Assembly (NCBI RefSeq): GCF_009791395.1
Contig: NZ_WSZK01000034.1
Coordinates: 62,001 to 126,000 of the forward strand
Direction of reading: 5' to 3'
Length of the DNA stretch: 64,000 bases
Source of the DNA: Halomarina oriensis
GTDB lineage: Archaea; Halobacteriota; Halobacteria; Halobacteriales; Haloarculaceae
The notes below the pieces were generated by a model. That model did no database searches. It worked only from the letters and a program-made list of their open reading frames with translations, and was not told where the DNA came from. Position 1 is the first letter of the stretch. Each line of letters starts with the position of its first letter. This document shows, one piece after another, positions 5,668 to 25,065 of the stretch. The translations under genes were made by a program, and so were the position numbers.

Positions 5668-7083
5668 TCAGTCGGCGTGAGCCTCGACGTCGCTGTCCTC
5701 GACCGCCGTCTTGTAGTTGCTGTAGACTTTGTCCGTGTAGTCCTCGAACTCGCCGCGCTCGAAGGCCTCGCGGAGCTCCACACAGGCGCTCTCGATGGTG
5801 TGTTCGGCCTCGTAGTCGAGCACGTCGCGGAGCTTCGAGAAGTCGACCCGATAGCTCCGGTCGTCCTCCCGGTCCGCGTTGACGTCGAGCGACGCGTGCG
5901 GGTAGTGGTCGGCGACGATGCGTCCGATGTCCTCGACGCAGTAGTTCTGCGCGTTCGACCCGACGTTGAACACCTCGTGAGCGACCGTCTCGATGGGCGC
6001 TTCCAGACAGGCCACGTAGGCGCGTGCGGCGTCGGCGACGTGGACGTTCGGCCGGTACTGGTCGCCGCCGAAGATGGGGACGACCCCCTCGGTGTGGGCC
6101 TTCGCGTTGAGGACGTTGACGACGAGGTCGAAGCGCATCCGTGGCGAGAGACCGTACACGGTCGCCATCCGGAGGACGGTCGGCGCGAAGTTGCCGTCCA
6201 TGTTCAGCAGTTCTCGCTCGGACTCTATCTTCGTCCGCGCGTAGAGCGAGACGGGGTTGAGGTCGTCTCCCTCGGTCAGCAGGTCGCCGCTCCCGGACTT
6301 CCCGTAGACGCTACACGTCGACGCGAACAGGAACCGGTTGATCTGGTGGTACTTGCAGATGTCCGCGACCAGTTTCACCGAGTGGAGGTTGAGCGCGAGC
6401 GTCCGCGACGGGTCGAGGCTCGATGCGGGGTCGCCGACCAGTCCACCGAGGTGGACGACCGCGTCGGCCCCCTCGATGGCGGTCATCACCGTCTCGATGT
6501 CGCACATGTCACCTTCGACGAGCGTGAACCGCTCGTCGTCGTAGTACTGGGAGATGCCGTGGTCGCCGAACAGCAACGGGTCCAGCACGCGAATCTCGTA
6601 CCCACGTTCGAGCAACTGTCCACAGAGCACCGACCCGATGTAGCCCGCCCCGCCGATGACGAGGACGGTGTTGACGCTCCCGTTCGAGGGACGGGTGGGA
6701 CCGGCGATCTCCCCACGCTTCGAGAGGAACGTGACGTCGGTCACCCGGTCGTCCTCGTCGACGATGGGGACGACCAGCCGACCCGTCTTCGGGGCCGCCG
6801 CTTCGAGTCTGGTCCGCGAGAACCGCGCGGCCACCTCCCGACGGTCCCACGACGCGCGGATGGCGACCGGGTCCTCGTTCATCACCGCCTCGACGGGCGC
6901 GTCGAGGCTCACACCGTCGAGGATGCCCCGACGGATGTCGCCGTCGGTGGCCGTCCCGACGAGGCGGGCGTCGTCGTCGACGAGGACGACGAGACCGAGG
7001 CCCACCTGGTCGATGCGGAGCATCGCGTCTTCGAGCGGCGTCGACCGGTGCGTGAGGATGTCCACCCGCGACGTGAGCCCCAT
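5668..7083 (-). CDS. CBS-domain pair fused to NAD-dependent sugar epimerase (SDR)
   Basis: The 471-aa protein has two parts. Residues 5-120 resemble a tandem CBS pair (VVLVDDDARLVGTATDGDIRR and, in the second copy, VPIVDEDDRVTD), a module that usually binds adenine nucleotides. From about 138 an extended SDR begins with GGAGYIG (144-150). It has an STCSVYG serine motif near 255-261 and the catalytic pair Y281/K285 (YARTK). The STCS motif is that of epimerases or reductases; the TDE motif of 4,6-dehydratases is absent. In nonulosonate loci CBS pairs are known at the front of PtmE-type nucleotidyltransferases, so this pairing with an epimerase is unusual. Its start lies one base after the stop of the aminotransferase gene, which implies co-transcription. 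The substrate is unknown. Confidence 0.8.
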   Translation of the reverse strand: MGLTSRVDILTHRSTPLEDAMLRIDQVGLGLVVLVDDDARLVGTATDGDIRRGILDGVSLDAPVEAVMNEDPVAIRASWDRREVAARFSRTRLEAAAPKTGRLVVPIVDEDDRVTDVTFLSKRGEIAGPTRPSNGSVNTVLVIGGAGYIGSVLCGQLLERGYEIRVLDPLLFGDHGISQYYDDERFTLVEGDMCDIETVMTAIEGADAVVHLGGLVGDPASSLDPSRTLALNLHSVKLVADICKYHQINRFLFASTCSVYGKSGSGDLLTEGDDLNPVSLYARTKIESERELLNMDGNFAPTVLRMATVYGLSPRMRFDLVVNVLNAKAHTEGVVPIFGGDQYRPNVHVADAARAYVACLEAPIETVAHEVFNVGSNAQNYCVEDIGRIVADHYPHASLDVNADREDDRSYRVDFSKLRDVLDYEAEHTIESACVELREAFERGEFEDYTDKVYSNYKTAVEDSDVEAHAD

Positions 7084-7084
7084 C

Positions 7085-8230
7085 TCAGGCCACCTCGCGC
7101 TGTTCGACGAGTGCCTCGTCCACGGCGTCGACGACGCGCGACGTCTCCGTCTCCGTCAGACCAGGGAACATCGGGAGCGTGAGGACACGCCCCGCCACGT
7201 CGTCGGTCACCGACAGCGGCACGCGCAGGCTCTCGTCGTCGCCGAGATAGTACTCGGACTGGTGGACGGCGGGGTCCCAGTACACCTTCGAGGCGATGTT
7301 CCGGTCGGCCAGCCGCGAGATGAGCGCCTCCCGGTCGACCCCGCGGGCGAGTTCGACCGTGTAGAGCTGGTAGACGTGTCGACCCGAGGGCGACGTGTGG
7401 GGCCTGACGCCGTCGACGTCCGCGAACCCCTCGTTCAGGCGTGTGGCCGCCGCCCGGCGGCCGGCGACGAGGTCCTCGACCCGCTCCATCTGTGCACAGC
7501 CGATGGCGGCGACGACGTCGGCCATCCGCAGGTTCGCGCCGAGTTGGACGTACCGGCCCGTCTGGGCGGAGTCGAAGTAGCGTTCGGAGGCACGCCCGTG
7601 CGAGCGGAAGAGTCGTGCGTTCCGCGCCACCTCCGGGTCGTTCGTGACGACGGCCCCGCCCTCGCCGGTGGTCGCGATCTTGTTCTGACAGAAGCTCAGC
7701 GCGCCCGAGTGGCCGAACGTCCCGAGTGGCTTCCCGTTGGAGTCCGCCCCCAACACCTCGGCGGCGTCCTCGACGAGCAACAGGTCGTGTTCGGCCGCGA
7801 GCGCCACGAGTTCCTCGATGCGACACGCTCCGCCGTAGGGGTGAACCGGGAGGATGGCGGCCGTCTCCGGTCCGATACACTCCCGGACGGAGTCGGGGTC
7901 GAGGCCGAACGTCTCCGGTTCGATGTCGGCGAAGACGGGCGTCGCGCCCGCCAGTCTGACCGCGTTGGCCGTCGCGATGAACGTGAACGACGGAACGACG
8001 ACCTCGTCGCCGGGGCCGACGTCGTGGGCGACGAGGGCGGTGACGAGGGCGCTCGTCCCGGAGTTGACGACGACGGCGTGTTCGACCCCGAGATAGTCGG
8101 CGATTCGCTCCTCGAACTCGTCGACGAACGGCCCGTTCGCCCAGTGACTCCCACGCCTGATGGACCTCGTCGCGTACTCCACGTCACGGTCGTCGGCGTC
8201 GATTCTGAACAGCGGGATTGTCTCGTGCAT
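7085..8230 (-). CDS. DegT/DnrJ/EryC1-family PLP sugar aminotransferase
   Basis: This PLP-dependent enzyme transfers an amino group to a keto-sugar nucleotide. The 381-aa length is typical of perosamine-synthase-like enzymes. Visible motifs are NSGTSAL (about 56-62, PLP phosphate), EDAAE (about 154-158, with the Asp contacting the pyridine nitrogen) and SFCQNKIATTGEGG with the Schiff-base Lys near 184. SF..NK.I.TGEGG resembles perosamine synthases more than the SFxxxKNL form. I start at ATG 8228-8230; a GTG six bases upstream is also in frame. It is first in a two-gene unit with the CBS-epimerase. In this context it would make a 4-amino sugar for the glycan, or an intermediate of the nonulosonic acid route. 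Confidence 0.87.
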   Translation of the reverse strand: MHETIPLFRIDADDRDVEYATRSIRRGSHWANGPFVDEFEERIADYLGVEHAVVVNSGTSALVTALVAHDVGPGDEVVVPSFTFIATANAVRLAGATPVFADIEPETFGLDPDSVRECIGPETAAILPVHPYGGACRIEELVALAAEHDLLLVEDAAEVLGADSNGKPLGTFGHSGALSFCQNKIATTGEGGAVVTNDPEVARNARLFRSHGRASERYFDSAQTGRYVQLGANLRMADVVAAIGCAQMERVEDLVAGRRAAATRLNEGFADVDGVRPHTSPSGRHVYQLYTVELARGVDREALISRLADRNIASKVYWDPAVHQSEYYLGDDESLRVPLSVTDDVAGRVLTLPMFPGLTETETSRVVDAVDEALVEQREVA

Positions 8231-8376
8231 CGTCACTCACCTACTGCTGCTACTTGGCTATCTGCTGTTTAGTTATTGTTACATGACATTTTTACACCGC
8301 CGTCGTATCGGCGGAAAGGACGGCGTTCAGACGTCGGTCCGGAGCCGACGAACAGTTGCACAGTAGTTATCCTGTT

Positions 8377-10573: not shown

Positions 10574-11341
10574 ATGGACGGACTGTTCGAACTGACCGGC
10601 CGGACGGTGGTGGTCGCAGGCGGCGCGGGACTCATCGGGACGGCGCTCTCGGAGGGGCTGGCGGCGCAGGGTGCGGCCGTCGTCGTCGCCGACGCGGCCC
10701 GTGACCGCGGCGAGCAGGTCGCCGAGACGGTCGGCGGTCGATTCGTCGAGACGGACGTGACCGACGAGGGGAGCGTCGAGTCGCTGTTCGAGACGGTGCT
10801 CGCCGAGGCGGGTCGTCTCGACGGCCTCGTCAACTGCTCGTACCCGCGCAACGAGAACTACGGTCGGCGCTACGAGGACGTCACCTACGCCGACTGGCGG
10901 GAGAACGTCGACCTCCACCTGAACAGCTACTTCCTGCTCGCCCACCGCGCCTCGCTCGTCATGCGCGAACAGGGCCACGGCAGCATCGTCAGCTTCGGGT
11001 CGACCTACGGCGTCCAGGCCCCCGACTTCTCGGTGTACGAGGGGACCGAGATGACCAGCCCCGTCGAGTACGCCGCCATCAAGGGCGGCATCCTCAACCT
11101 CACGCGCTACATGGCGTCGTACCTCGGGCGCGACGGCGTTCGCGTCAACACCATCAGTCCCGGCGGCGTCTTCGACGAGCAACACCCCACGTTCGTCTCC
11201 GAGTACGAACGACGCACGCCGCTCGACCGGATGGCCCGACCGGAGGACTTCGTCGGGGCCGTCGTCTACCTGCTCTCCGACGCCGCCGGATACGTGACGG
11301 GGCACGACCTCCGCGTCGACGGCGGGTGGACCGTCTGCTGA
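10574..11341 (+). CDS. PtmA-like short-chain dehydrogenase (nonulosonic acid locus)
   Basis: This is a classical SDR of 255 aa. It has an altered glycine motif, GGAGLIGTA, near residues 16-24, followed by NCSYPRNENYG near 92-102 and the active-site YAAIKGG, with Tyr and Lys four residues apart. The CSYPRN.NYG stretch is characteristic of PtmA-type SDRs found with flagellin nonulosonate genes in bacteria. The exact reaction of that family is not settled. GAGAGGG lies about ten bases upstream of the start. It precedes the CMP-sugar synthetase gene with an 84-base gap that contains a possible promoter. Confidence 0.85.
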   Translation: MDGLFELTGRTVVVAGGAGLIGTALSEGLAAQGAAVVVADAARDRGEQVAETVGGRFVETDVTDEGSVESLFETVLAEAGRLDGLVNCSYPRNENYGRRYEDVTYADWRENVDLHLNSYFLLAHRASLVMREQGHGSIVSFGSTYGVQAPDFSVYEGTEMTSPVEYAAIKGGILNLTRYMASYLGRDGVRVNTISPGGVFDEQHPTFVSEYERRTPLDRMARPEDFVGAVVYLLSDAAGYVTGHDLRVDGGWTVC

Positions 11342-11425: not shown

Positions 11426-12160
11426 ATGATTGACACCCACCGCGTCGTCGCCGTCGTCCCCGCCCGTGGCGGGAGCGAGACGGTGCCGAACAAGAACGTC
11501 CGGGGGTTGGGGGGGAAGCCACTCGTCGCGTGGCCCATCGACGTCGCTCGGGCCACGCCGGCCATCGACCGCGTCGTCGTCACCACCGACGACCCCAGCA
11601 TCGCCGCCGTCGCCCGCGAGTACGGGGCCGACGTCGTCGACCGGCCCGCGTCACTGGCGACCGACGACGCACTCGTCGTCGACGCGCTTCGGCACGTCGT
11701 CGAGGAACTCCGCAGCGAGGGGGAGGACGCCGACCTCCTCGTGATGCTCGAACCGACCTGTCCGTTGCGGCGTCCCGAGGACGTGATCGCGTGTCTCGAA
11801 CGACTCGCGGCCGGCGACTGTGACTCCGTCGCGACGTTCACCGAGGCGGCGGTCAACCCACATCGCATCTGGCGCATCGATGGCGGTGACCCCGAACCGT
11901 TCGTCGACGGAGCCGACCCGTTCCAGCCACGGCAGTCGCTTCCCGACGCCTACGAACTGACGGGAGCGGTGTACGCGTTCGCCGTCGACGCGCTCCCCGC
12001 CGAGGGGAGTTCGTTGCTGTTCGGCCGGCAGGGAGCCGTGACGATGCCCCGGGAACGGAGCGTCGACATCGACACCGAACTCGACTTCGCCGTCGCCGAG
12101 ACGCTGCTCGCGGAGGGCGTCGTGACCGGCGGCCGACCCGTGGAGGCGACCAATGAGTGA
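11426..12160 (+). CDS. neuA: acylneuraminate cytidylyltransferase (NeuA/LegF type)
   Basis: This enzyme activates a nonulosonic acid by joining it to CMP from CTP. The 244-aa protein opens with the nucleotide-binding VPARGGSETVPNKNVR, where Arg and Lys sit as in bacterial CMP-NeuAc synthetases. It continues with VVVTTDDPSIAAVA, the LEPTCPLR substrate loop near 110-117, and DIDTELDF near the end, which carries the conserved metal-binding Asp pair. Sequence alone does not tell sialic from legionaminic or another nonulosonate. The stop overlaps the start of the next SDR gene by eight bases, so the two are co-translated. Confidence 0.88.
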   Translation: MIDTHRVVAVVPARGGSETVPNKNVRGLGGKPLVAWPIDVARATPAIDRVVVTTDDPSIAAVAREYGADVVDRPASLATDDALVVDALRHVVEELRSEGEDADLLVMLEPTCPLRRPEDVIACLERLAAGDCDSVATFTEAAVNPHRIWRIDGGDPEPFVDGADPFQPRQSLPDAYELTGAVYAFAVDALPAEGSSLLFGRQGAVTMPRERSVDIDTELDFAVAETLLAEGVVTGGRPVEATNE

Positions 12161-12980
12161 CACCACCGAACGGCCGACCGTCTGGGACCTGTTCGACCTG
12201 ACGGGGCGGACCGCCGTCGTGACCGGTGGTCCGGGCAAACTCGGCTCGCAGATGTGCGAGGCGCTCGCCGAAGCGGGCGCGAACGTCGTCGTCACCTCTC
12301 GGACCTACGAGGACTGCGAGGCGAAAGCGCGCGAACTCTCCTCGCAGTACAACGAGGCGCTCCCCGTCGCCGCGGACGTGACCGACGAGGAGTCGGTGAA
12401 GGACCTCGTCGACACCACCGTCGACGCCTTCGGCGGCATCGACGTCCTCGTCAACAACGCCTACCACGCGACGGGCTACGGCACGGCCTTCGAGGAGTTG
12501 ACGGCCGAGGAGTGGGCCGAGACGCTCGAAGGCGTCCTGACCCAGACGTTCGTGACGACGCAGGCGGCGCTCCCGGCTATCCGCGAGAGCGACGCGCCGA
12601 GCGTCGTCAACATCGGCAGTCACTACGGCGTCGTCCCGCCGGACCAGCGCGTCTACGGCGAGACGGGCATCAACAACCCGCCGACGTACGGGTCGGCGAA
12701 GGCCGGCGTCATCCACTTCACGAAGTGGCTGGCGTCGTACCTCCACGAGGAGCGGGTTCGGGTGAACTCCATCAGCCCCGGCGGGTTCTACAGCGAGGCG
12801 ATGGAGGAGGTAGAGGGGTACACCGAGACGTTCGTCCCGAACTACGAGTACCGGACGATGCTCGGGCGGATGGGCGACGACACCGACATGAAGGGGATAA
12901 TCGTCTACCTCGCCAGCGACGCGAGCAAGTGGATGACCGGCCAGAACGTCGTCCTCGACGGCGGGTGGACCTCGTGGTGA
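12153..12980 (+). CDS. short-chain dehydrogenase in the nonulosonate operon
   Basis: This classical SDR of 275 aa has TGGPGKLG as its glycine motif, NNAYHATGYG in place of the usual NNAG, a GSHYGVV serine region and YGSAKAGVI as the active-site Tyr/Lys. It resembles the PtmA-like SDR at 10574 in plan and ending (both end in DGGWT) and may be a diverged duplicate. It overlaps the cytidylyltransferase by eight bases upstream, and its stop TGA overlaps the GTG of the oxidoreductase downstream. The substrate is unknown, probably a sugar or sugar-acid intermediate. Confidence 0.82.
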   Translation: MSDTTERPTVWDLFDLTGRTAVVTGGPGKLGSQMCEALAEAGANVVVTSRTYEDCEAKARELSSQYNEALPVAADVTDEESVKDLVDTTVDAFGGIDVLVNNAYHATGYGTAFEELTAEEWAETLEGVLTQTFVTTQAALPAIRESDAPSVVNIGSHYGVVPPDQRVYGETGINNPPTYGSAKAGVIHFTKWLASYLHEERVRVNSISPGGFYSEAMEEVEGYTETFVPNYEYRTMLGRMGDDTDMKGIIVYLASDASKWMTGQNVVLDGGWTSW

Positions 12981-13960
12981 CCGTCGTCCGCGAGGACGGA
13001 CTCCGAGTCGTTGCCGACGGCGACGACCGGGACGAGGGCGGCCTCTCGCTCGGCGTCGTCGGCCTCACACCCGGCAACGGTCACCCCTACTCGTTCGCGG
13101 CCATCGTCAACGGCTACTCCGACGCCGGGTTCGCCGACTCCGAGTGGGGCGTCGTCCACGACTACCTCCGCAAGAAGTCGCCCGCCGAGTTCGGCTTCGA
13201 CGGCGTCCGCGTCACCCACGCCTGGACCCAGGAACTCGCGGAGACCCAGCGTCTCGCCGCCGCCGCCCGCATCCCGGCCGTCGTCGAGGAACTGGAGGAA
13301 CTCCACGACGAGGTGGACGCCCTCCTGCTCCTCCGGGACGACTTCGAGCGCCACGCGGAGATGGCACTCCCGTTCCTGGAGGACGGAACGCCCGTCTTCG
13401 TCGACAAACCGCTCGCGCTGGACGTCGAGGAACTGGAGCGGTTCCGCCCGCACCTCGAATCGGGACGACTCGTCTCCACCTCGGGGATGCGCTTCGCGCG
13501 CGAACTCGACGGTCCGCGGGCGACCCTCGCCGACTACGGCGACGTGACCGTCGCTCGTGGTACGGTCATCAACGACTGGGAGCACTACGGCGTCCACATG
13601 CTCGACGCCGTCTACGGCGTCCTCGACCAGCGCCCGGTGACGGTGTCGTCCTACGACGTCCCCCACGACGCGTTCGCGGTGGAACTCGACGGCGGGACGC
13701 TCGTCGAGATCGACGCGCTCGGCGAGGCCCCGTTCACGTTCGACGTGGCGTTCTACGGGTCCGAAGCGCACTCGACCCACCAGCTCCGTGATAACTTCAC
13801 CGCGTTCCGCCGGACGCTCTGGGCGTTCGTAGAGACGGTCCGGACCGGCCACCCCGTCGTCGAACCCGAAGACACCCTCGACGTGATGCGGACGCTCGTC
13901 GCGGGGCGACGGGCACGCGAGACCGGCGAGGACGTCGCCATCGAGGACCTCGGGATATGA
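12977..13960 (+). CDS. Gfo/Idh/MocA-family oxidoreductase of nonulosonate loci
   Basis: This is an NAD(P)-dependent sugar oxidoreductase of about 327 aa. GTG 12977 is chosen because it overlaps the upstream stop as GTGA; GTG 12974 and 12965 are also in frame. The N-terminal Rossmann part reads LGVVGLTPGNGHPYSF, close to the GNGHPYS start of Gfo/Idh proteins that accompany neuraminate-type genes. Next come RVTHAWTQ and the DKPLAL motif with the family's conserved Lys-Pro. The C-terminal half is the alpha/beta substrate domain. The stop shares ATGA with the next gene. Its role is probably sugar oxidation or reduction in the pathway, inferred from context. Confidence 0.82.
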   Translation: MTVVREDGLRVVADGDDRDEGGLSLGVVGLTPGNGHPYSFAAIVNGYSDAGFADSEWGVVHDYLRKKSPAEFGFDGVRVTHAWTQELAETQRLAAAARIPAVVEELEELHDEVDALLLLRDDFERHAEMALPFLEDGTPVFVDKPLALDVEELERFRPHLESGRLVSTSGMRFARELDGPRATLADYGDVTVARGTVINDWEHYGVHMLDAVYGVLDQRPVTVSSYDVPHDAFAVELDGGTLVEIDALGEAPFTFDVAFYGSEAHSTHQLRDNFTAFRRTLWAFVETVRTGHPVVEPEDTLDVMRTLVAGRRARETGEDVAIEDLGI

Positions 13961-14790
13961 GCGACGACCGGGGAGCGGTCGACCTCGTCGACCTGCGTGT
14001 GGACGGCGATACCGCCGGAGCGGACGGCGACTCCGACGTCGAAGCGGACGACGGGGTGGACGACACGGCCGACGACGAGCGCCCGACCGTCGTCTTCCTC
14101 GGGGCGAACAACGTCGGACTGGAGGTGTACGACTGGCTCTGTGACCGCGAGTCGGTCGACGTGCTGGCGATGCTGACCGAGAAGTCCCAGCTCCCGCTGG
14201 TCGAACGCCTCCACCCCGACTTCGTCGTGGCCTGCGGGTTCACCCACATCGTCCCGCCGACGGTGCTCGCGGTGCCCGAGAGGGGCTGTCTCAACCTCCA
14301 TCCCGGACTCCTCCCGTACGCGCGAGGCTACAACCCGAACGTCTGGAGCATCGTCGACGACGTGCCGGCGGGTGTGACGCTGCACTACATGGACGACGGC
14401 GTCGACACCGGCCCCGTCGTGGCGACCCGCGAAGTCGAGGCCCACTTCGACGACACCGGGAAGACGCTCTACGACCGCCTCGAACGGGCGACCGTCGACC
14501 TGTTCGCCGAGGCGTGGCCCGGCGTCGAGGACGGCACCGCCACGGCCCGCGACCAGGACGACTCGCTGGCGACGACCCACTACAAACGCGAGTTCGTCGA
14601 CCTGTGCGAACTCGACCCCGACGAGGAACTGACGACGAAGGAACTGCTCGACAGACTCCGCGCACTGACGTTCCCGCCGTTCGACAACGCTCGCATCGAC
14701 GTCGACGGCGAGACGTACTACGTCGAGGTGTCCATCACACACGAGGACGACACCGAATCGGGCGACGACGGTCGGCTGTCGTCGTACTGA
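13957..14790 (+). CDS. formyltransferase-family protein (sugar N-formyltransferase candidate)
   Basis: The protein belongs to the fold that uses 10-formyltetrahydrofolate to formylate amines. Of 277 aa, the first 40 are a low-complexity acidic leader. The core begins at TVVFLGANNVGLEVYDWL and contains LNLHPGLLPYARGYNP, matching the N-x-H-P-x-LLP active-site loop, and then DDGVDTGPVV with the catalytic Asp. It lacks the C-terminal OB domain of tRNA formyltransferases, which favours a small-molecule acceptor such as an amino sugar. It is the last gene of the plus-strand block and converges on a second formyltransferase 39 bases away. Confidence 0.83.
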   Translation: MSDDRGAVDLVDLRVDGDTAGADGDSDVEADDGVDDTADDERPTVVFLGANNVGLEVYDWLCDRESVDVLAMLTEKSQLPLVERLHPDFVVACGFTHIVPPTVLAVPERGCLNLHPGLLPYARGYNPNVWSIVDDVPAGVTLHYMDDGVDTGPVVATREVEAHFDDTGKTLYDRLERATVDLFAEAWPGVEDGTATARDQDDSLATTHYKREFVDLCELDPDEELTTKELLDRLRALTFPPFDNARIDVDGETYYVEVSITHEDDTESGDDGRLSSY

Positions 14791-14829
14791 TTCCGCGACC
14801 GTTCCCGCGGGGGTCGGAGGACGCTCCCG

Positions 14830-15774
14830 CTACTCCACGAGGTAGTCCCGCGCGTCCACGAACCGGTCGCCGATTGCCGCGTACCCCTCTTCGACCAGCG
14901 CACTCGCCGGCAGTTCCTCGCCGTCGACACCGACCCGCGTCACCTCGACGGCCCCCTCCCAGACGCCGACGCGAAGCGCGTCGCCGTCGACGGACAGTAG
15001 CGCTCCCGGTTCACAGAACGCGTGCTCGGCGGTCGGTGGGGTCGCCGCCCAGAGCCGGACCTCGTGGCCGTTCAGTTCCGAGAACGCGCCGGGATAGGGG
15101 TGGGTCTGTCCGCGAATCCAGTCGTACACCTCGCGTGGCGGGCGGGTCCAGTCGACCAGTCCGTGTCGCGGGACGCGTTTCGGCCACCACGTCGCCGCGG
15201 CGTCGTCCTGTGGTTCGCGGGGCACCTCGCCGGCCTCGAATCGCGGGTACGCCTCCCGAATCAGCGACCGACCGGCCTCGACGACCTTCTCGTAGAGCGA
15301 GGCCGCGTCGTCCTCGACGGCGACGGGAATCGGCCGTTGACCCACGAGGTCACCGGCGTCGGCCTCCTCGGCGAGGTGGAAACACGACAGCGCCGTTTCG
15401 TCGAGGCCCTTGACGAGACTCCACGCGATGGGCGCACGTCCGCGCCCGCGGGGGAGCGGCGCGGGGTGCATCCCGAGCGCCGCGACGTTCGCCAGGTCGA
15501 ACACCGCGGGGTCGACCAGACGCGACCACCCGACGACGAACAGCAGGTCCGGGTCCTCGGCCGCGATGCGTTCGCGGACGGCATCGGCGTTGACGTCGTC
15601 GACCTCTTCGAGCGGGACGTCGTGTGCCGACGCGAACCGCGAGAGGTCCGTCTGGTCGCTGATGCCCGGTTGCTGTGGCCGAGTGACCACCCGCCTGACG
15701 TCCGCGCCGAGGTCGACGAGTTCTTCGAGACAGGCGAGACCGAGGTCGTTGTGGGTGACGAAGACGACGCGCAT
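14830..15774 (-). CDS. second formyltransferase, full-length Fmt/ArnA-like
   Basis: The 314-aa protein has an N-terminal formyltransferase domain (VVFVTHNDLGLACLEEL) and the loop ALGMHPAPLPRGRGRAPI. In that loop Met stands where most family members have the catalytic Asn (N-x-HP). Later it has AEEADAGDLVGQ, aligned with the Asp of the usual DTG. A C-terminal domain containing THPYPGAFS resembles the second domain of Fmt and ArnA-type enzymes. The Asn replacement may alter or weaken catalysis. It follows the 2-epimerase gene by 57 bases on the same strand, forming a PIG-L / NeuC-type / formyltransferase set. A tRNA role is unlikely in this setting. Confidence 0.8.
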   Translation of the reverse strand: MRVVFVTHNDLGLACLEELVDLGADVRRVVTRPQQPGISDQTDLSRFASAHDVPLEEVDDVNADAVRERIAAEDPDLLFVVGWSRLVDPAVFDLANVAALGMHPAPLPRGRGRAPIAWSLVKGLDETALSCFHLAEEADAGDLVGQRPIPVAVEDDAASLYEKVVEAGRSLIREAYPRFEAGEVPREPQDDAAATWWPKRVPRHGLVDWTRPPREVYDWIRGQTHPYPGAFSELNGHEVRLWAATPPTAEHAFCEPGALLSVDGDALRVGVWEGAVEVTRVGVDGEELPASALVEEGYAAIGDRFVDARDYLVE

Positions 15775-15831
15775 ACCCCCTCCAGTACGCCGAGGAGCAT
15801 CAACGTGTACGCCGTTTGATGGTTCGGAGAG

Positions 15832-17043
15832 TCAGTAGGTCAGTCGCTTGCGGAGCAGCGACTCGTCCAGTTCGACCGACGCGAGACGGTCGGCGACGGT
15901 CCGACCGGCCCCGCCGTGGTCGTAGGGGTTCTCACAGTCGGCGACCCGCCGGCGGAAGGCGTCGTCGCTGAGACAGCGGTCGACGGCCTCGTGGACTGCG
16001 TCACGGTCGTGGGGCACCCGAATCGTGTGGTCGGCGCGCTCGCGGCCCTCCTGGCGGGGGCCGACGTCCACGACGGGGAGGTCGAGCGACGCGGCTTCGA
16101 TGATGCCGCTAGAGGAGTTCCCGACCATCACGTCCGCGGCGGCCATCAGTCCGAGGTACGTCGCCCGTGGGAGACTCCTGAACGCCGTGAGGGCCGGCCT
16201 CGCCTCGATTTCGGCGATGACGCGTCGGCCCCCCGCATCGGAGTTCGGGTAGACGACGACCGGTTCGACGTCGAGGTCGGTCAGCGCGTCGAGCGTGGCC
16301 GCCATCTGTTCGCCCGCTCGCTCGGGAGCGGAGGTGAGCGGATGCTGGACGACGAGCGCGAGTCGGCGGTCGGGCAGGTCGAGTCGCTCTCGAACCGCCT
16401 CGGGGGTGTCGTACTCGCCGGCGAGGACGGCGTCGAGGCCGGGTGCGCCGACCGTCGTGATGCGCCACTCCTCCTCGCCCAGTCGCCGGATACGCTCGGC
16501 CGACCGCTCGGTGACGGGGAAGTGGAGGTGGGCGAACTTCGTCAGCGCGTGACGGATGCTGTCGTCGACGATGGCCCCCTCCATCGAGTCCCCACCGTGG
16601 ACGTGCGCGACGGGGACGTTCATGTGGGCGGCCGCGAGGCCCGCTGCGAGCGCCTCGTCGCGGTCACCGAGGACGAGCACCACGTCGGGGTCGAGACTCG
16701 CAAGTGCGTCCGCCGTCCCCGAGACGCCGAGACCGAGCGACTTCGCCATCGCCACGCCGGAGTCGCCGTCGACGAGCGTCGGCACCTCGCGGGCGACGCC
16801 GAACCCGTCGTCGCGGATGTCGTCGACGGTGTGGCCGTACTGCGGCGAGAGATGCATCCCCGTCACGACCACGTCCAGTGTGAGCGCGTCGTGAGCGTCG
16901 ATAGCGCGCATCGACGACGACAGGAGACCGTACTCCGCCCGCGTCCCGGTGACGACGACGACCCGTCGGGAACTGGTGTCGTCGCTCGTCTCGGCAGCGG
17001 TCGGGTCGTGGTCGTGCTCTCGGCCACTCGCGTGGTCGGTCAC
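15832..17043 (-). CDS. neuC: UDP-GlcNAc 2-epimerase, hydrolysing (NeuC/LegG type)
   Basis: This enzyme inverts C2 and releases UDP, giving the free ManNAc-type sugar used by the synthase. Start GTG 17043 overlaps the PIG-L stop as GTGA, giving 403 aa. After a charged leader of about 30 residues the protein has VTGTRAEYGLL, the classic N-terminal motif. It then has LGDRDEALAA, HVHGGDSMEGAIVDDSIRHALTK and, near the end, VGNSSSGIIEA for UDP binding. These are the signatures of hydrolysing rather than reversible epimerases (the reversible WecB type lacks the S-x-EG-x-x-DD form). Whether its substrate is UDP-GlcNAc or a 2,4-diamino derivative (LegG-like) is not decided by these motifs. Confidence 0.88.
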   Translation of the reverse strand: MTDHASGREHDHDPTAAETSDDTSSRRVVVVTGTRAEYGLLSSSMRAIDAHDALTLDVVVTGMHLSPQYGHTVDDIRDDGFGVAREVPTLVDGDSGVAMAKSLGLGVSGTADALASLDPDVVLVLGDRDEALAAGLAAAHMNVPVAHVHGGDSMEGAIVDDSIRHALTKFAHLHFPVTERSAERIRRLGEEEWRITTVGAPGLDAVLAGEYDTPEAVRERLDLPDRRLALVVQHPLTSAPERAGEQMAATLDALTDLDVEPVVVYPNSDAGGRRVIAEIEARPALTAFRSLPRATYLGLMAAADVMVGNSSSGIIEAASLDLPVVDVGPRQEGRERADHTIRVPHDRDAVHEAVDRCLSDDAFRRRVADCENPYDHGGAGRTVADRLASVELDESLLRKRLTY

Positions 17044-17726
17044 GGCGCTCCTCTCCGTTCCGTGACCAGACGGAACGCTTCGGCGGCGGACACTCCCGCG
17101 GCAGCGCCACGCATCGTCGCTCGCGCGCGGAGGCTCTCCTCGGAGCGCGGGTGGGGGAACGCACGGGTCTCGGACTCGTAGGCCGCGAACCCGGCGATCT
17201 TCGTGTCGAGGTGGTCGGTCACGTCGACGTACACCGTCGGGTGGAACCCGTCGGTCCCACCGCCCACCCAGTCCGTCGACGACGGTGTCTCGTAGGCGAG
17301 GACGCGCTCGACGCCGCTGTCCGGTCGGGTAGCGACGAGCGTCGAGTCGTAGACGGCGTGGTGGTCGCGGTTGACCTCCTGTCGTGAGTGCGTGTAGACG
17401 ACCGATGGCTCGACGCTGGCGACACACTCCTCGACGACGGCGTTGACCTCGACGTGTGGCACGTCGTCGAGGCGCATGTCGGGCAGGTCGCCGAAGTGGA
17501 CCGTCTCGACGCCGAGTCGGTCGGCACAGACCCGTGCTTCCTCGCGTTTTCGCTCGACGTACGACGGGTCGTCGTACTGTGCGGTCGAACCTTCCGTCAC
17601 GATGAGGACGTGTACCTCGTCACCCTGCGCTGCGTGGGCGGCGAGCGTCCCCCCTGCTCCCAGCACCTCGTCGTCCGGGTGCGCACCGACACAGAGCACC
17701 GTCCGGGGGGCGACGGTCCGCGTCAC
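17040..17726 (-). CDS. PIG-L/LmbE-family N-deacetylase
   Basis: This is a zinc-dependent deacetylase of 228 aa that removes acetyl from N-acetyl sugars. Zinc motif AHPDDE lies at residues 15-20, with catalytic Asp 18 or 19, and VNRDHHAVYDST carries the second histidine motif (HxxH-like). It begins at GTG 17726, preceded by GGGGGTGG. Its stop shares GTGA with the start of the 2-epimerase, so the two proteins should be made together. Pairing of a deacetylase with NeuC and a formyltransferase suggests that an acetamido group is exposed and then reacylated, which is inference. Confidence 0.85.
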   Translation of the reverse strand: MTRTVAPRTVLCVGAHPDDEVLGAGGTLAAHAAQGDEVHVLIVTEGSTAQYDDPSYVERKREEARVCADRLGVETVHFGDLPDMRLDDVPHVEVNAVVEECVASVEPSVVYTHSRQEVNRDHHAVYDSTLVATRPDSGVERVLAYETPSSTDWVGGGTDGFHPTVYVDVTDHLDTKIAGFAAYESETRAFPHPRSEESLRARATMRGAAAGVSAAEAFRLVTERRGAP

Positions 17727-17988: not shown

Positions 17989-19263
17989 TCAGACGAGTTC
18001 CTTGAGTCGGCTGTCCCGGAGGACGGATTTCAGGACGATACCGGTGTCCTGGACGAGACGGTGTTCGAGGTAGCTCCCCTGTCCGCGCCCCCCGCCGGTC
18101 CGGGTGGACTCGACGACGCCGAGGAACGCCTGCTCTTTCAGCAGTTCGTAGACGCGGTGTTCGCTGAGCACCGTCGCGTTCGTCTGGTCGGCGGTCTCGC
18201 CGTACCGCTCGTAGATGCGGCTGGTCGAGAAGGCGTCCGTCTCGGGGTCCTCCTCGGAGAGTCGCGCGAGCGCGTAGAGGATGAACTTCACCTGTGTCGT
18301 CGACCCGCGGAGCAGTTCCTCGAACCGGTCGACCTCCGCCCACTCCTGAGCGTTGCGAACGTGGTCCTCGGTGACCCTGCTGGCGTTCGCCCGCTCGGCG
18401 AGCTCCCCCGCGTGCCGGAGGATCTCGATGGCCTTGCGCGCGTCCCCGTGTTCCTGTGCGGCGACCGCCGCCGTGAGCGGGATGACGTCGTCGGAGAGGA
18501 CCCCCTCGCAGAAGGCGTCACGACGGTGCTCCATGATCTCGCGCAGTTGATTGGCGTCGTACGGCTGGAAGACGAACTCCTCCTCCCGGAGGCTGGACTT
18601 GACGCGCTCGTTGAGCTGGTCGCGGTACTCGATCTTGTTGCTCACCGCGACGACGCCGAGGTGGCAGTCGGCCTTGCCGGACTCCTTCGCGCGCGTGAGT
18701 TGCATCAGGATGTCGTCGTCGTCGAGGCGGTCGACCTCGTCGAGGATGATGATAGCCGAGTCGTAGGCGATGTCGAGGATCTCCCAGAGGTAGTCGTAGT
18801 ACTCGCCGCTCCCGATACCGGTCCGTGGGATGTCGAACTGGGTCTTCTCGTTCTCGTTGAGCGTCCGCGTGACCGTCCGTGCGACGCGCGTCTGGGTGTT
18901 GTGCTGGGCGCAGTCGACGTAGACCGTGCCGACCGGGATGTCGTTGCTCTCGGCGGCCCGGCGGGCGCGCTCGGTGACGTGGCGAGCGACGAGCGACTTG
19001 CCCGTCCCCGTCTTCCCGTAGATCATCACGTTGTTCGGCGGGTCGGCCCGGACGATGGGACGGAGTTCCGCCGCGACGGCTTCGATCTCGTCGTCACGAC
19101 CGACGATGCGCGTACTCTCGGGGACGTGGCCCACCTTCAGTAGCTCCTTGCGCGAGAAGATGTCGACCCGGTCCGGGTCCTCGCCGATGCTGAACAGTGG
19201 GTCCTCGGACGGCTCTTCGAACCGGTCGTCGAAGTCCGAGAGGTTCGTCGACTCGTCGGCCAT
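17989..19263 (-). CDS. orc: Orc1/Cdc6 replication initiator
   Basis: This AAA+ protein of 424 aa binds origin repeats and loads the MCM helicase. ATG 19261-19263 is chosen; the ATG six codons upstream gives no better context. It has Walker A GKTGTGKS (about 83-90), Walker B IIILDEVD (about 171-178), a sensor-1 VAVSNK stretch, sensor-2 HGDARKAIE, and a C-terminal winged helix from about 340 on (IYERYGETADQTN). The gene lies at the left edge of the repeat-flanked AT-rich region and is transcribed away from it, the standard arrangement of haloarchaeal origins. It should recognise the adjacent repeats, since initiators usually match their own origin. Confidence 0.93.
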   Translation of the reverse strand: MADESTNLSDFDDRFEEPSEDPLFSIGEDPDRVDIFSRKELLKVGHVPESTRIVGRDDEIEAVAAELRPIVRADPPNNVMIYGKTGTGKSLVARHVTERARRAAESNDIPVGTVYVDCAQHNTQTRVARTVTRTLNENEKTQFDIPRTGIGSGEYYDYLWEILDIAYDSAIIILDEVDRLDDDDILMQLTRAKESGKADCHLGVVAVSNKIEYRDQLNERVKSSLREEEFVFQPYDANQLREIMEHRRDAFCEGVLSDDVIPLTAAVAAQEHGDARKAIEILRHAGELAERANASRVTEDHVRNAQEWAEVDRFEELLRGSTTQVKFILYALARLSEEDPETDAFSTSRIYERYGETADQTNATVLSEHRVYELLKEQAFLGVVESTRTGGGRGQGSYLEHRLVQDTGIVLKSVLRDSRLKELV

Positions 19264-19307
19264 CAGTATCGTATCGTGCAACGGGGGCCTCTGTACTTAA
19301 GCGTTCG

Positions 19308-19327
19308 CACCCGGCCAAGAGTGTATC
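19308..19327 (+). repeat. origin recognition box 1 (degenerate)
   Basis: CACCCGGCCAAGAGTGTATC is two bases shorter than the consensus at its centre but keeps CACCC and CAAGAGTGTAT. It is closest to the orc1/cdc6 start, so it may also affect that gene's promoter. Confidence 0.6.
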
Positions 19328-19401
19328 TCCCGGCGAGACCGCCGTCCGCCGACCCTCGGCGGACGATAGAGCGAGACGATCGACGACGACTGTGACTCGA
19401 C

Positions 19402-19422
19402 CACCCCTCGTCCCGAGTGTAA
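19402..19422 (+). repeat. origin recognition box 2
   Basis: CACCCCTCGTCCCGAGTGTA matches the shared 20-mer except at two central positions (CCC in place of CAA with one further change). Confidence 0.65.
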
Positions 19423-19493
19423 CGGACGAGGGACGAGCGACGGTTCGATCGCTCCCGAATCGGACGCCCGTTCACCGACCATCGCCACGTGGA

Positions 19494-19514
19494 CACCCCC
19501 CGTCAAGAGTGTAT
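19494..19514 (+). repeat. origin recognition box 3
   Basis: It matches the shared box with one change (C for T at position 7), giving CACCCCCCGTCAAGAGTGTA. Confidence 0.8.
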
Positions 19515-19534
19515 ATCGGGGGGAGCGCGACGAC

Positions 19535-19555
19535 CACCCCTCGTCAAGAGTGTAT
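19535..19555 (+). repeat. origin recognition box 4
   Basis: It has an exact copy of CACCCCTCGTCAAGAGTGTA, 41 bases after box 3 (about four helical turns), so both boxes face the same side of the DNA. Confidence 0.85.
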
Positions 19556-19752
19556 CAGCGTGTCGGTGGGTCTCCACCCGTTCGTTCACGCTCGTTCACG
19601 CTCTCGTTGATGGGGGATGTGTCACGCTCGACGACACATACTCGACGACGTTCGGTTGGCCGCCCGTTCGCGGGCCGCCCGTTCGCGCCCGTCGACGACG
19701 GACGGGGTCGGAGGTCGTGTAACGTTCCAGTCGGGCGACGAGTGCCGGCCCA

Positions 19753-19773
19753 CACCCCTCGTCAAGAGTGTAT
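19753..19773 (+). repeat. origin recognition box 5
   Basis: It has an exact copy of the shared 20-mer, preceded by a further CA (CACACCCC). Confidence 0.85.
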
Positions 19774-19833
19774 CGTCGAGACCGTCCGAACGGTGGGGCG
19801 GATGCCAGCTTTCGGGGGTCTCGCCGGCACCCA

Positions 19834-19854
19834 CACCCCTCGTCAAGAGTGTAA
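19834..19854 (+). repeat. origin recognition box 6
   Basis: It has an exact copy of the shared 20-mer, 81 bases after box 5, preceded by CA as in box 5. It is the left box nearest the AT-rich core, and a G-rich run follows directly. Confidence 0.85.
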
Positions 19855-20027
19855 CAACGAGGAGGGGGGTGGGGGGGTCTGTGCTGTGTCGTGTCGTCGG
19901 TAGAACACGAATCCGGCCTCTCGTCGGTCGAAGAGGCCGTGAACGGCCGCGAGAAGGACACCGGCGGCTACCTCCCGCCGTCTCTGTGAGTCGTCTCACA
20001 GGGAGTATGCCAGTACCAACGACATGA

Positions 20028-20145
20028 GTAGTATACGTCATATCTGATTCCGAATATGAAAATACTCTAATATTAAGCTAGCTAGCTTATATAGTATGAG
20101 CGCTAATATCTCAACAAGTGCATTCTTGATGAACGTAGAGTGATG
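20028..20145. other. AT-rich DNA-unwinding element
   Basis: This is the most AT-rich stretch of the window, in otherwise very GC-rich DNA. It includes AAAATACTCTAATATTAAGC and GCTAGCTAGCTTATATAGTA. It lies between the left boxes and the single inverted right box, as expected for the site where an origin melts. Confidence 0.75.
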
Positions 20146-20371
20146 GCGGCATTCACTCGTATCCATCCGAACGACTGCTGACGTCTTCCGTGGTCGTGAC
20201 GCCGTCCCTTCCGAGTCGTCGTCGGACGGTGACTCGGTGGGAACCCCCGTTTCAGCGGGTGAACTACCGGTATCCGGGCAGCAGACGCTTCGCTGGACGA
20301 CCCCTCCGTCACCGTCACCCGGCCACCGAACCCCCTCTTCGAGTGGAACCCCCACCCCACCCTCGCACCGT

Positions 20372-20392
20372 TTACACTCTTGACGAGGGGTG
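20372..20392 (-). repeat. origin recognition box 7 (inverted, right flank)
   Basis: This is the reverse complement of the shared 20-mer, reading TACACTCTTGACGAGGGGTG on the plus strand. It is the only box found right of the AT-rich core, and its inverted orientation completes the origin. Confidence 0.85.
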
Positions 20393-20400
20393 TGTGTCTT

Positions 20401-24042: not shown

Positions 24043-25065
24043 TCAGTCCCCGCTCGGTTCGCCGACGGACTCCTCGGTGATTGGGTTCCCGGCGTCGAGG
24101 GCCACCCGTGCGGTCGTTCCCAGGACGCGCTCGTAGGTGGTCGGTGCTAAGCCGTCGGCCGGGCGGGTGATGGCGACGTTCTCGGCGGTGAATCGCTCGC
24201 CGGCGTCGATGGGGACGGCGGCGTGGAGCGCCTTTCTGATGACGTCGCGGTTCTCGCGTTCGGTCCGGGTCGGGCCCTTCTCGGCGCTGCCCAGGACCGT
24301 CTCGGCGTCACGGACCAGCGCGACGGCCGCCGTCAACTCGTCGGGTTCGAGCGAGGCGCGGTGGTCGGGGCCGGAGAGGGTTCTGTCGAGCGTGAAGTGC
24401 TTCTCGACGACGGTAGCACCGGCGGCGACGGCAAACGCGGGCACCTCGACGCGCGTCGTGTGGTCGGAGTAGCCGACCGGTACCGGGAGCGTATCGGCCA
24501 TCGTTCGCATCGCCCGCAGGTTCACCTCGTCGAGCGCGGCCGGGTAGGCCGTCGTGCAGTGGAGGAACGTCACCGGAACGTCCTCGTCGACGCCGCGAAT
24601 CGCCGCCAGCGCGGCCTCTACCTCCTCCATGGTCCCCATGCCCGTCGAGACGACCATCGGACGGCCGAACCCGGCGACGTGCTCCAGCAGGGGGTGGTTG
24701 TCGAGTTCGCCGGACCCGAGTTTCACTCGCGGGACGTCCAGTTCGTCCAGCAGTGTCGCGCTCTCGACGTCGAACGGCGTCGAGAGGAAGTCGATACCAC
24801 GCTCTCGACAGTACGACTGGAGTCGGTCGTGATCCGCACGCGTCAGTTCCAGCGACTGGAGCATCTCGTGCTGTGACTCCTCACCGGTCGTCTCCTCCTG
24901 ATACGGCGCTTTCGGCGCGTCGCGGGTCGCCAACCGGTCGGCGACGAACGTCTGGAACTTCACGGCGTCGGCTCCGGCCGCGACGGCGGCGTCGACGAGT
25001 CGCTCCGCCCGGTCCATGTCGCCGTCGTGGTTGACACCCGCCTCGGCGATGAAGTAACACGTCAT
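24043..25065 (-). CDS. neuB: N-acetylneuraminate/legionaminate synthase (NeuB type)
   Basis: This enzyme condenses a ManNAc-type sugar with phosphoenolpyruvate to give a nine-carbon acid. The 340-aa length and plan are those of NeuB. The TIM barrel begins FIAEAGVNHDGD and contains VKFQTF, STPFD, KLGSGE, STGM, LHCTTAYP, GYSDHT and the metal-binding EKHFTLDR. A C-terminal antifreeze-like SAF domain (about 280-340) starts near RKALHAAVPIDAGE. The motifs do not separate sialic from legionaminic or pseudaminic substrates. It is the first gene of a minus-strand operon with the HP-motif protein and flippase, apart from the NeuC and NeuA homologues on the other side of the origin. Confidence 0.9.
   Translation of the reverse strand: MTCYFIAEAGVNHDGDMDRAERLVDAAVAAGADAVKFQTFVADRLATRDAPKAPYQEETTGEESQHEMLQSLELTRADHDRLQSYCRERGIDFLSTPFDVESATLLDELDVPRVKLGSGELDNHPLLEHVAGFGRPMVVSTGMGTMEEVEAALAAIRGVDEDVPVTFLHCTTAYPAALDEVNLRAMRTMADTLPVPVGYSDHTTRVEVPAFAVAAGATVVEKHFTLDRTLSGPDHRASLEPDELTAAVALVRDAETVLGSAEKGPTRTERENRDVIRKALHAAVPIDAGERFTAENVAITRPADGLAPTTYERVLGTTARVALDAGNPITEESVGEPSGD

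Follow-up and report, generated by a model that had tools for sequence, protein, structure and literature searches.

The question raised by this locus of the haloarchaeon Halomarina oriensis is why genes for a nonulosonic acid stand together with two formyltransferase genes and a deacetylase gene. It was studied in a window of 64,000 nucleotides (contig NZ_WSZK01000034.1, positions 62,001 to 126,000), to which positions in the text refer unless another locus is named. A sequence-only reading of this stretch had described two convergent operons, each ending in a formyltransferase, and had predicted that a nonulosonic acid, or its precursor, loses an acetamido group and receives a replacement, possibly N-formyl. 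Our analysis suggests that the product of the locus is probably a cytidine monophosphate (CMP)-activated nonulosonic acid, legionaminic in type and formylated on both nitrogens. The best supported part is the exchange of acetyl for formyl by the deacetylase PIG-L and the formyltransferase FMT2, which is very likely; the step assigned to the aminotransferase LegC and the formyltransferase FMT1 is weaker. This reading is preferred because PIG-L and FMT2 co-occur, and because both are carried by a genome resembling that of Halorubrum sp. PV6, in which N-formyl-legionaminic acid has been measured.

The genes of the predicted exchange lie on the minus strand. PIG-L (17040-17726; PIG-L domain 102.0 bits) is a PIG-L family de-N-acetylase, followed by NeuC, a hydrolysing UDP-N-acetylhexosamine (UDP-HexNAc) 2-epimerase (15832-17043; Epimerase_2 272.6 bits, NCBIfam NeuC_NnaA 391 versus a cut-off of 236 bits), and by FMT2, an ArnA/Fmt-like formyltransferase of a Gly-x-His (G-x-H) class (14830-15774; Formyl_trans_N 65.3 and Formyl_trans_C 54.7 bits). 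FMT1, a VioF/PseJ-like formyltransferase of the sugar-4-amine type (13957-14790; Formyl_trans_N 81.6 and N_formyltrans_C 60.1 bits), approaches from the plus strand, so that the two blocks converge with ∼40 nucleotides between their stop codons (14790/14830). A terminator-like site was looked for between these blocks and none was found. All four genes were recovered as open reading frames where the sequence-only reading had placed them, its GTGA coupling of PIG-L and NeuC was seen as an overlap at 17040-17043, and the domain calls of all four lay above the curated Pfam cut-offs. In a sample of 394 genomes the same gene set was found in nine further haloarchaeal genomes, with FMT2 at least 55% identical. 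The locus is not a chance arrangement, because the same genes recur in these nine genomes.

In PIG-L, residues H16, D18, D19, D121 and H122 were invariant in alignment A2, and the AHPDDE motif and the distal metal-binding His were both found. Co-occurrence was surveyed in 75 genomes, namely 71 of the 394 sampled Halobacteriales genomes and four named ones, within the neighbourhood of neuB (mostly 20 kb). PIG-L and FMT2 were present together in 17 of the 75, PIG-L alone in one (G103), FMT2 alone in none and neither in 57. The Fisher value of 6e-16 for this co-occurrence ignores kinship and is inflated, because the four named genomes were found via their FMT2 and a dozen regions had originally been fetched around FMT2. 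Gains and losses of PIG-L and FMT2 coincide: on the neuB tree FMT2 changes nine times, and PIG-L went in the same direction in five to six of six comparable pairs on supported branches and in none in the opposite direction (p 0.03-0.06). Of both formyltransferases, only FMT2 pairs with the deacetylase. The whole module was also observed on a plasmid of 427 kb in Halorussus caseinilyticus (L039, L134), and a plasmid location could be a cause of its patchy distribution.

The product to which this pair can be compared is that of Halorubrum sp. PV6, whose N-glycan terminates in 5-N-formyl-legionaminic acid (PMC6137143). The formyl at N-5 is credited to Kandiba et al. (2012), as cited in PMC6137143; the reported mass step of 302.10 (PMC6137143) corresponds to one formyl plus one acetyl group, whatever their positions. 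Pathway genes were assigned in PV6 and HrrPV6_1050 was put forward as the N-formyltransferase, and a deacetylase was not named (PMC6137143). All 24 residues of the PV6 S-layer glycopeptide were matched in genome G052, and the next best of 53 congeneric genomes reached 58%; by this evidence G052 would be PV6 or a close relative. Its cluster runs legC, legB, legF, legG, FMT2, neuD, PIG-L, legI, which is the order of HrrPV6_1046-1053. PIG-L, single copy in this genome, occupies the slot of HrrPV6_1052, unnamed in the published account, and is a candidate for the deacetylase missing from the 2018 PV6 pathway. Formyltransferase-domain proteins of G052 are FMT2, a PurN-PurH fusion and a PurU-like protein, the latter two classed from their counterparts in the host genome of the window, so that FMT2 is the only one not of purine type. 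A NeuD-family acetyltransferase above the family cut-off adjoins FMT2 (L045 10859-11488); as a candidate for the LegH step it is by inference preferable to the nucleotidyltransferase that PMC6137143 names. The PV6 cluster shares with the window FMT2, PIG-L, NeuC, NeuB, LegC and a cytidylyltransferase, with FMT2, PIG-L and NeuC of the window 55-63% identical to the G052 proteins. However, it has NeuD and a FlaA1-type LegB and no FMT1, whereas the window has FMT1, a CBS-SDR protein, a different type of cytidylyltransferase (∼35% identical) and a trio of two short-chain dehydrogenases (SDRs) and a Gfo/Idh-like oxidoreductase.

FMT1 and FMT2 belong to different classes of formyltransferase and probably have different jobs. 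FMT1 matched the dTDP-4-amino sugar formyltransferase model, with a score under the cut-off, and in the PDB it is closest to PseJ and to sugar formyltransferases of the VioF kind. The Asn-x-His (N-x-H)...Asp triad of formyltransferases dependent on 10-formyl-tetrahydrofolate (10-formyl-THF) is complete in FMT1, as in PseJ and the VioF/QdtF type; unlike these, FMT1 stands in a legionaminic-type locus with a second, PIG-L-linked formyltransferase. The start of FMT1 is uncertain, because its first ∼40 residues form an acidic, poorly conserved stretch. FMT2 aligns with the formyltransferase domain of ArnA and with Fmt over ∼290 residues and both domains, Formyl_trans_C included, and ArnA/Fmt came out on top when its AlphaFold model was used in a fold search. 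It differs from them in gene context and in having Gly at the position of the catalytic Asn, a replacement seen in 10/10 FMT2 orthologs, ten aligned remoter haloarchaeal homologs and five bacterial homologs. With Gly-x-His...Asp instead of the full triad, FMT2 is therefore taken as an ArnA/Fmt homolog whose catalytic class is putative. The AlphaFold model is uninformative on the Gly, because the predicted local distance difference test (pLDDT) was <50 around the active site.

An FMT2 without the catalytic Asn might be a hydrolase or transfer another group, the formyl coming from elsewhere. The Gly is fixed across the whole class, and this Asn is likewise missing from a related domain, the hydrolase domain of 10-formyl-THF dehydrogenase. 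Nevertheless this explanation is quite improbable, since His and Asp are kept, FMT2 is the sole candidate not of purine type in the PV6-like genome, and the glycan of PV6 is N-formylated (PMC6137143). It is hardly credible that housekeeping genes, one for a methionyl-tRNA formyltransferase and one for a deacetylase of thiols or lipids, are located here by chance, although an FMT2 ortholog is labelled methionyl-tRNA formyltransferase by NCBI's pipeline and PIG-L scores against bacillithiol deacetylase models. These scores lie under the cut-offs of those models, the linkage to neuB and neuC is conserved, and to our knowledge Archaea do not formylate initiator methionine. A role of the two formyltransferases on tRNA or purines, which the sequence-only reading had itself raised as the opposing case, was rejected as unlikely, as purine-type and deformylase relatives (PurN-PurH, PurU) are encoded elsewhere in the host genome. 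A fifth formyltransferase-domain protein of this genome (L005 1105-1977, G000:C45; 290 amino acids) is distant from FMT1 and FMT2 and is possibly another sugar formyltransferase.

Pairs of PIG-L and FMT were also found in G144 and G041, where no NeuB was matched at E 1e-40, and in bacteria. On plasmids of Roseobacteraceae (Leisingera sp. S132, Sulfitobacter sp. DSM 110093) a G-x-H formyltransferase is adjacent to PIG-L in polysaccharide loci, as in the haloarchaea, and genes for an aminotransferase and a sugar transferase lie next to the pair; these operons differ in that neuB is not nearby, and they probably act on a di-amino hexose linked to a nucleotide or a lipid. In Palleronia, Ruegeria and Agrobacterium, G-x-H formyltransferases were seen that have no PIG-L beside them. 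Because PIG-L/FMT pairs exist without neuB, action on an activated 2-acetamido hexose, the C-2 nitrogen of which becomes N-5, is favoured. The other order, in which the exchange by PIG-L and FMT2 comes late, on the completed nonulosonic acid or on its CMP form, is doubtful: it draws on the lack of specialisation in NeuB and NeuC, where residues tracking FMT2 were looked for and none were found, but against it stand the pairs without NeuB, and characterised PIG-L enzymes use conjugates of N-acetylglucosamine.

The second nitrogen is assigned from the distribution of FMT1 and NeuD. FMT1 was found in 19 genomes and NeuD in 9, and both never at one locus; among loci with PIG-L and FMT2, FMT1 only was present in 12, NeuD only in 3, neither in 2 and both in 0. 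The window locus has no NeuD homolog. Read most simply, this distribution means that FMT1 formylates the other nitrogen: PIG-L and FMT2 would share one nitrogen and FMT1 or NeuD would acylate the other, which with FMT1 would give a 5,7-di-N-formyl sugar. Alternatively only N-5 is formylated, by PIG-L and FMT2, and FMT1 acts on another amino sugar of the glycan, giving a mono-formyl nonulosonic acid. FMT1 does occur without PIG-L and FMT2 in pseudaminic-like loci (G290, G357, G214, G229, G258, G353, G321), and its closest characterised relatives use 4-amino hexoses, not necessarily nonulosonate precursors. Against this stand the mutual exclusion of FMT1 and NeuD and the place of FMT1 as the final gene of a cytidylyltransferase block without acetyltransferase, which makes mono-formylation unlikely.

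That block runs SDR, cytidylyltransferase, SDR, Gfo/Idh and then FMT1 on the plus strand; the sequence-only reading had listed a cytidylyltransferase, an SDR and Gfo/Idh ahead of the formyltransferase. It comprises the PtmA-like SDR1 (10574-11341; PRK09186 265 versus a cut-off of 255 bits, PtmA 171.5 bits under its cut-off), a NeuA-type cytidylyltransferase (11426-12160; CTP_transf_3 77.9 bits), SDR2 (12153-12980; adh_short_C2 168.6 bits) and the Gfo/Idh-like oxidoreductase (12977-13960), an open frame with a GTG start that overlaps SDR2 by GTGA and FMT1 by ATGA and whose orthologs are annotated Gfo/Idh/MocA. NeuB, the nonulosonic acid synthase (24043-25065, minus strand; NeuB_NnaB 426.8 versus a cut-off of 399.65 bits), lies ∼6 kb past PIG-L on the far side of an Orc1/Cdc6 gene, outside the region that the sequence-only reading had covered. 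Thus the NeuB synthase, NeuC and a CMP-nonulosonate synthetase expected of a nonulosonic acid locus were all found, the last at family level (CTP_transf_3 above the Pfam cut-off, the PseF model at 134.8 bits under its cut-off). On the minus strand, a LegC-type aminotransferase of the DegT family (7085-8236; DegT_DnrJ_EryC1 368 bits, PseC and LegC models under their cut-offs) is 56-64% identical to LegC of legionaminic-type loci. It is paired with CBS-SDR, a CBS domain joined to an extended SDR (5668-7083, minus strand; Epimerase 146.6 and CBS 33.4 bits), which stands where relatives carry a FlaA1-type 4,6-dehydratase.

The steps below, their order and the di-formyl product are predicted from gene content, conservation, co-occurrence and motifs. 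LegC would aminate a UDP-HexNAc-derived sugar at C-4, and FMT1 would formylate this C-4 amine, which becomes N-7, in the slot of the NeuD-family acetyltransferase of relatives. PIG-L would strip the acetyl of the original 2-acetamido group, and FMT2 would add formyl to the amine so freed, which becomes N-5. NeuC would then remove UDP and epimerise C-2, NeuB would condense the product with phosphoenolpyruvate and the cytidylyltransferase would activate the sugar. The SDR/SDR/Gfo-Idh trio may modify the sugar further; by analogy to EpaB and AciE (PMC12053666), C-8 epimerisation is possible.

Several observations weigh against this reading in addition to the Gly of FMT2 and the absence of residues in NeuB and NeuC that track it. 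G103 carries PIG-L without FMT2, and independent pairs are too few for the exclusion of FMT1 and NeuD to be tested on a tree. Moreover, a recognisable 4,6-dehydratase was looked for in the window and none was found. The motif expected of this enzyme is STDE; CBS-SDR has STCSVYG in its place and keeps YxxxK, and STDE was also absent from the GDP_Man_Dehyd-type SDRs inspected in the host genome, where a search for a close FlaA1-type enzyme found none. Either CBS-SDR is an unusual dehydratase or the sugar retains its C-6 hydroxyl. Accordingly, 'legionaminic' is used here for a type with a putative backbone, and the CBS-SDR/LegC pair might supply one that is not 6-deoxy.

Further observations were made around these genes. 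A CBS-SDR gene adjoins a LegC-type aminotransferase gene also in G383, G205, G301, G125, G391 and G347, at the place that a FlaA1-type 4,6-dehydratase takes in other loci, and the acid-base motif of the dehydratases is missing from it. The legionaminic-type locus of G103 (L067, 10457-16995) has PIG-L and NeuD and no formyltransferase, and near it ATP-grasp-like and HAD-like genes, assigned by eye, resemble the ATP-grasp/HAD pair beside the Palleronia and Ruegeria formyltransferases. In two other Halomarina genomes a sulfatase-like gene, again by eye, separates neuC from FMT2 and is encoded on the opposite strand (L036 7857-9809, L037 7901-9823); it is not present at the corresponding place in the window. 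The Orc1/Cdc6-like gene (17989-19281, minus strand), assigned by eye from sequence, has an 81% match in G353 and is followed by CACCCCTCGTCAAGAGTGTA repeats, with direct copies between 19402 and 19870 and one in inverted orientation at 20372-20397. Together they (17989-20397) look like a replication origin within the glycan cluster.

The chemistry proposed by the sequence-only reading is probably right, supported by the joint gain and loss of PIG-L and FMT2 and by their presence in the PV6-like genome. Its mention of legionaminic acid in a Halorubrum N-glycan was correct and missed the formylated form, and its claim that no archaeal pathway of this kind had been described was too strong, as PMC6137143 describes N-formylated legionaminic acid from Halorubrum sp. 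PV6, with HrrPV6_1050 as its proposed N-formyltransferase. The product class is thus already known (PMC6137143); new are the candidate deacetylase, a putative exchange cassette together with the genomes in which it occurs, and the prediction of a di-formyl sugar. An open literature search for PIG-L with legionaminic acid, a formyltransferase with PIG-L, and PseJ gave nothing useful, and no description of a 5,7-di-N-formyl nonulosonic acid was found.

N-formyl-legionaminic acid caps S-layer and virus-spike glycans, and a role in virus-host recognition has been proposed (PMC6137143). The 2018 PV6 paper left open how N-formyl reaches a nitrogen of archaeal legionaminic acid that is initially acetylated. 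We tentatively propose, as quite possible, that PIG-L and a G-x-H formyltransferase form a portable exchange cassette for activated 2-acetamido sugars in haloarchaea and bacteria, which with a second formyltransferase would yield a 5,7-di-N-formyl nonulosonic acid in Halomarina and several other genera. Polysaccharide loci of bacteria carry the putative cassette too, and the FMT2 class breaks a catalytic rule of the formyltransferase family. For the haloarchaea, gene content predicts species with a mono-formyl, a di-formyl or a plain acetyl sugar.

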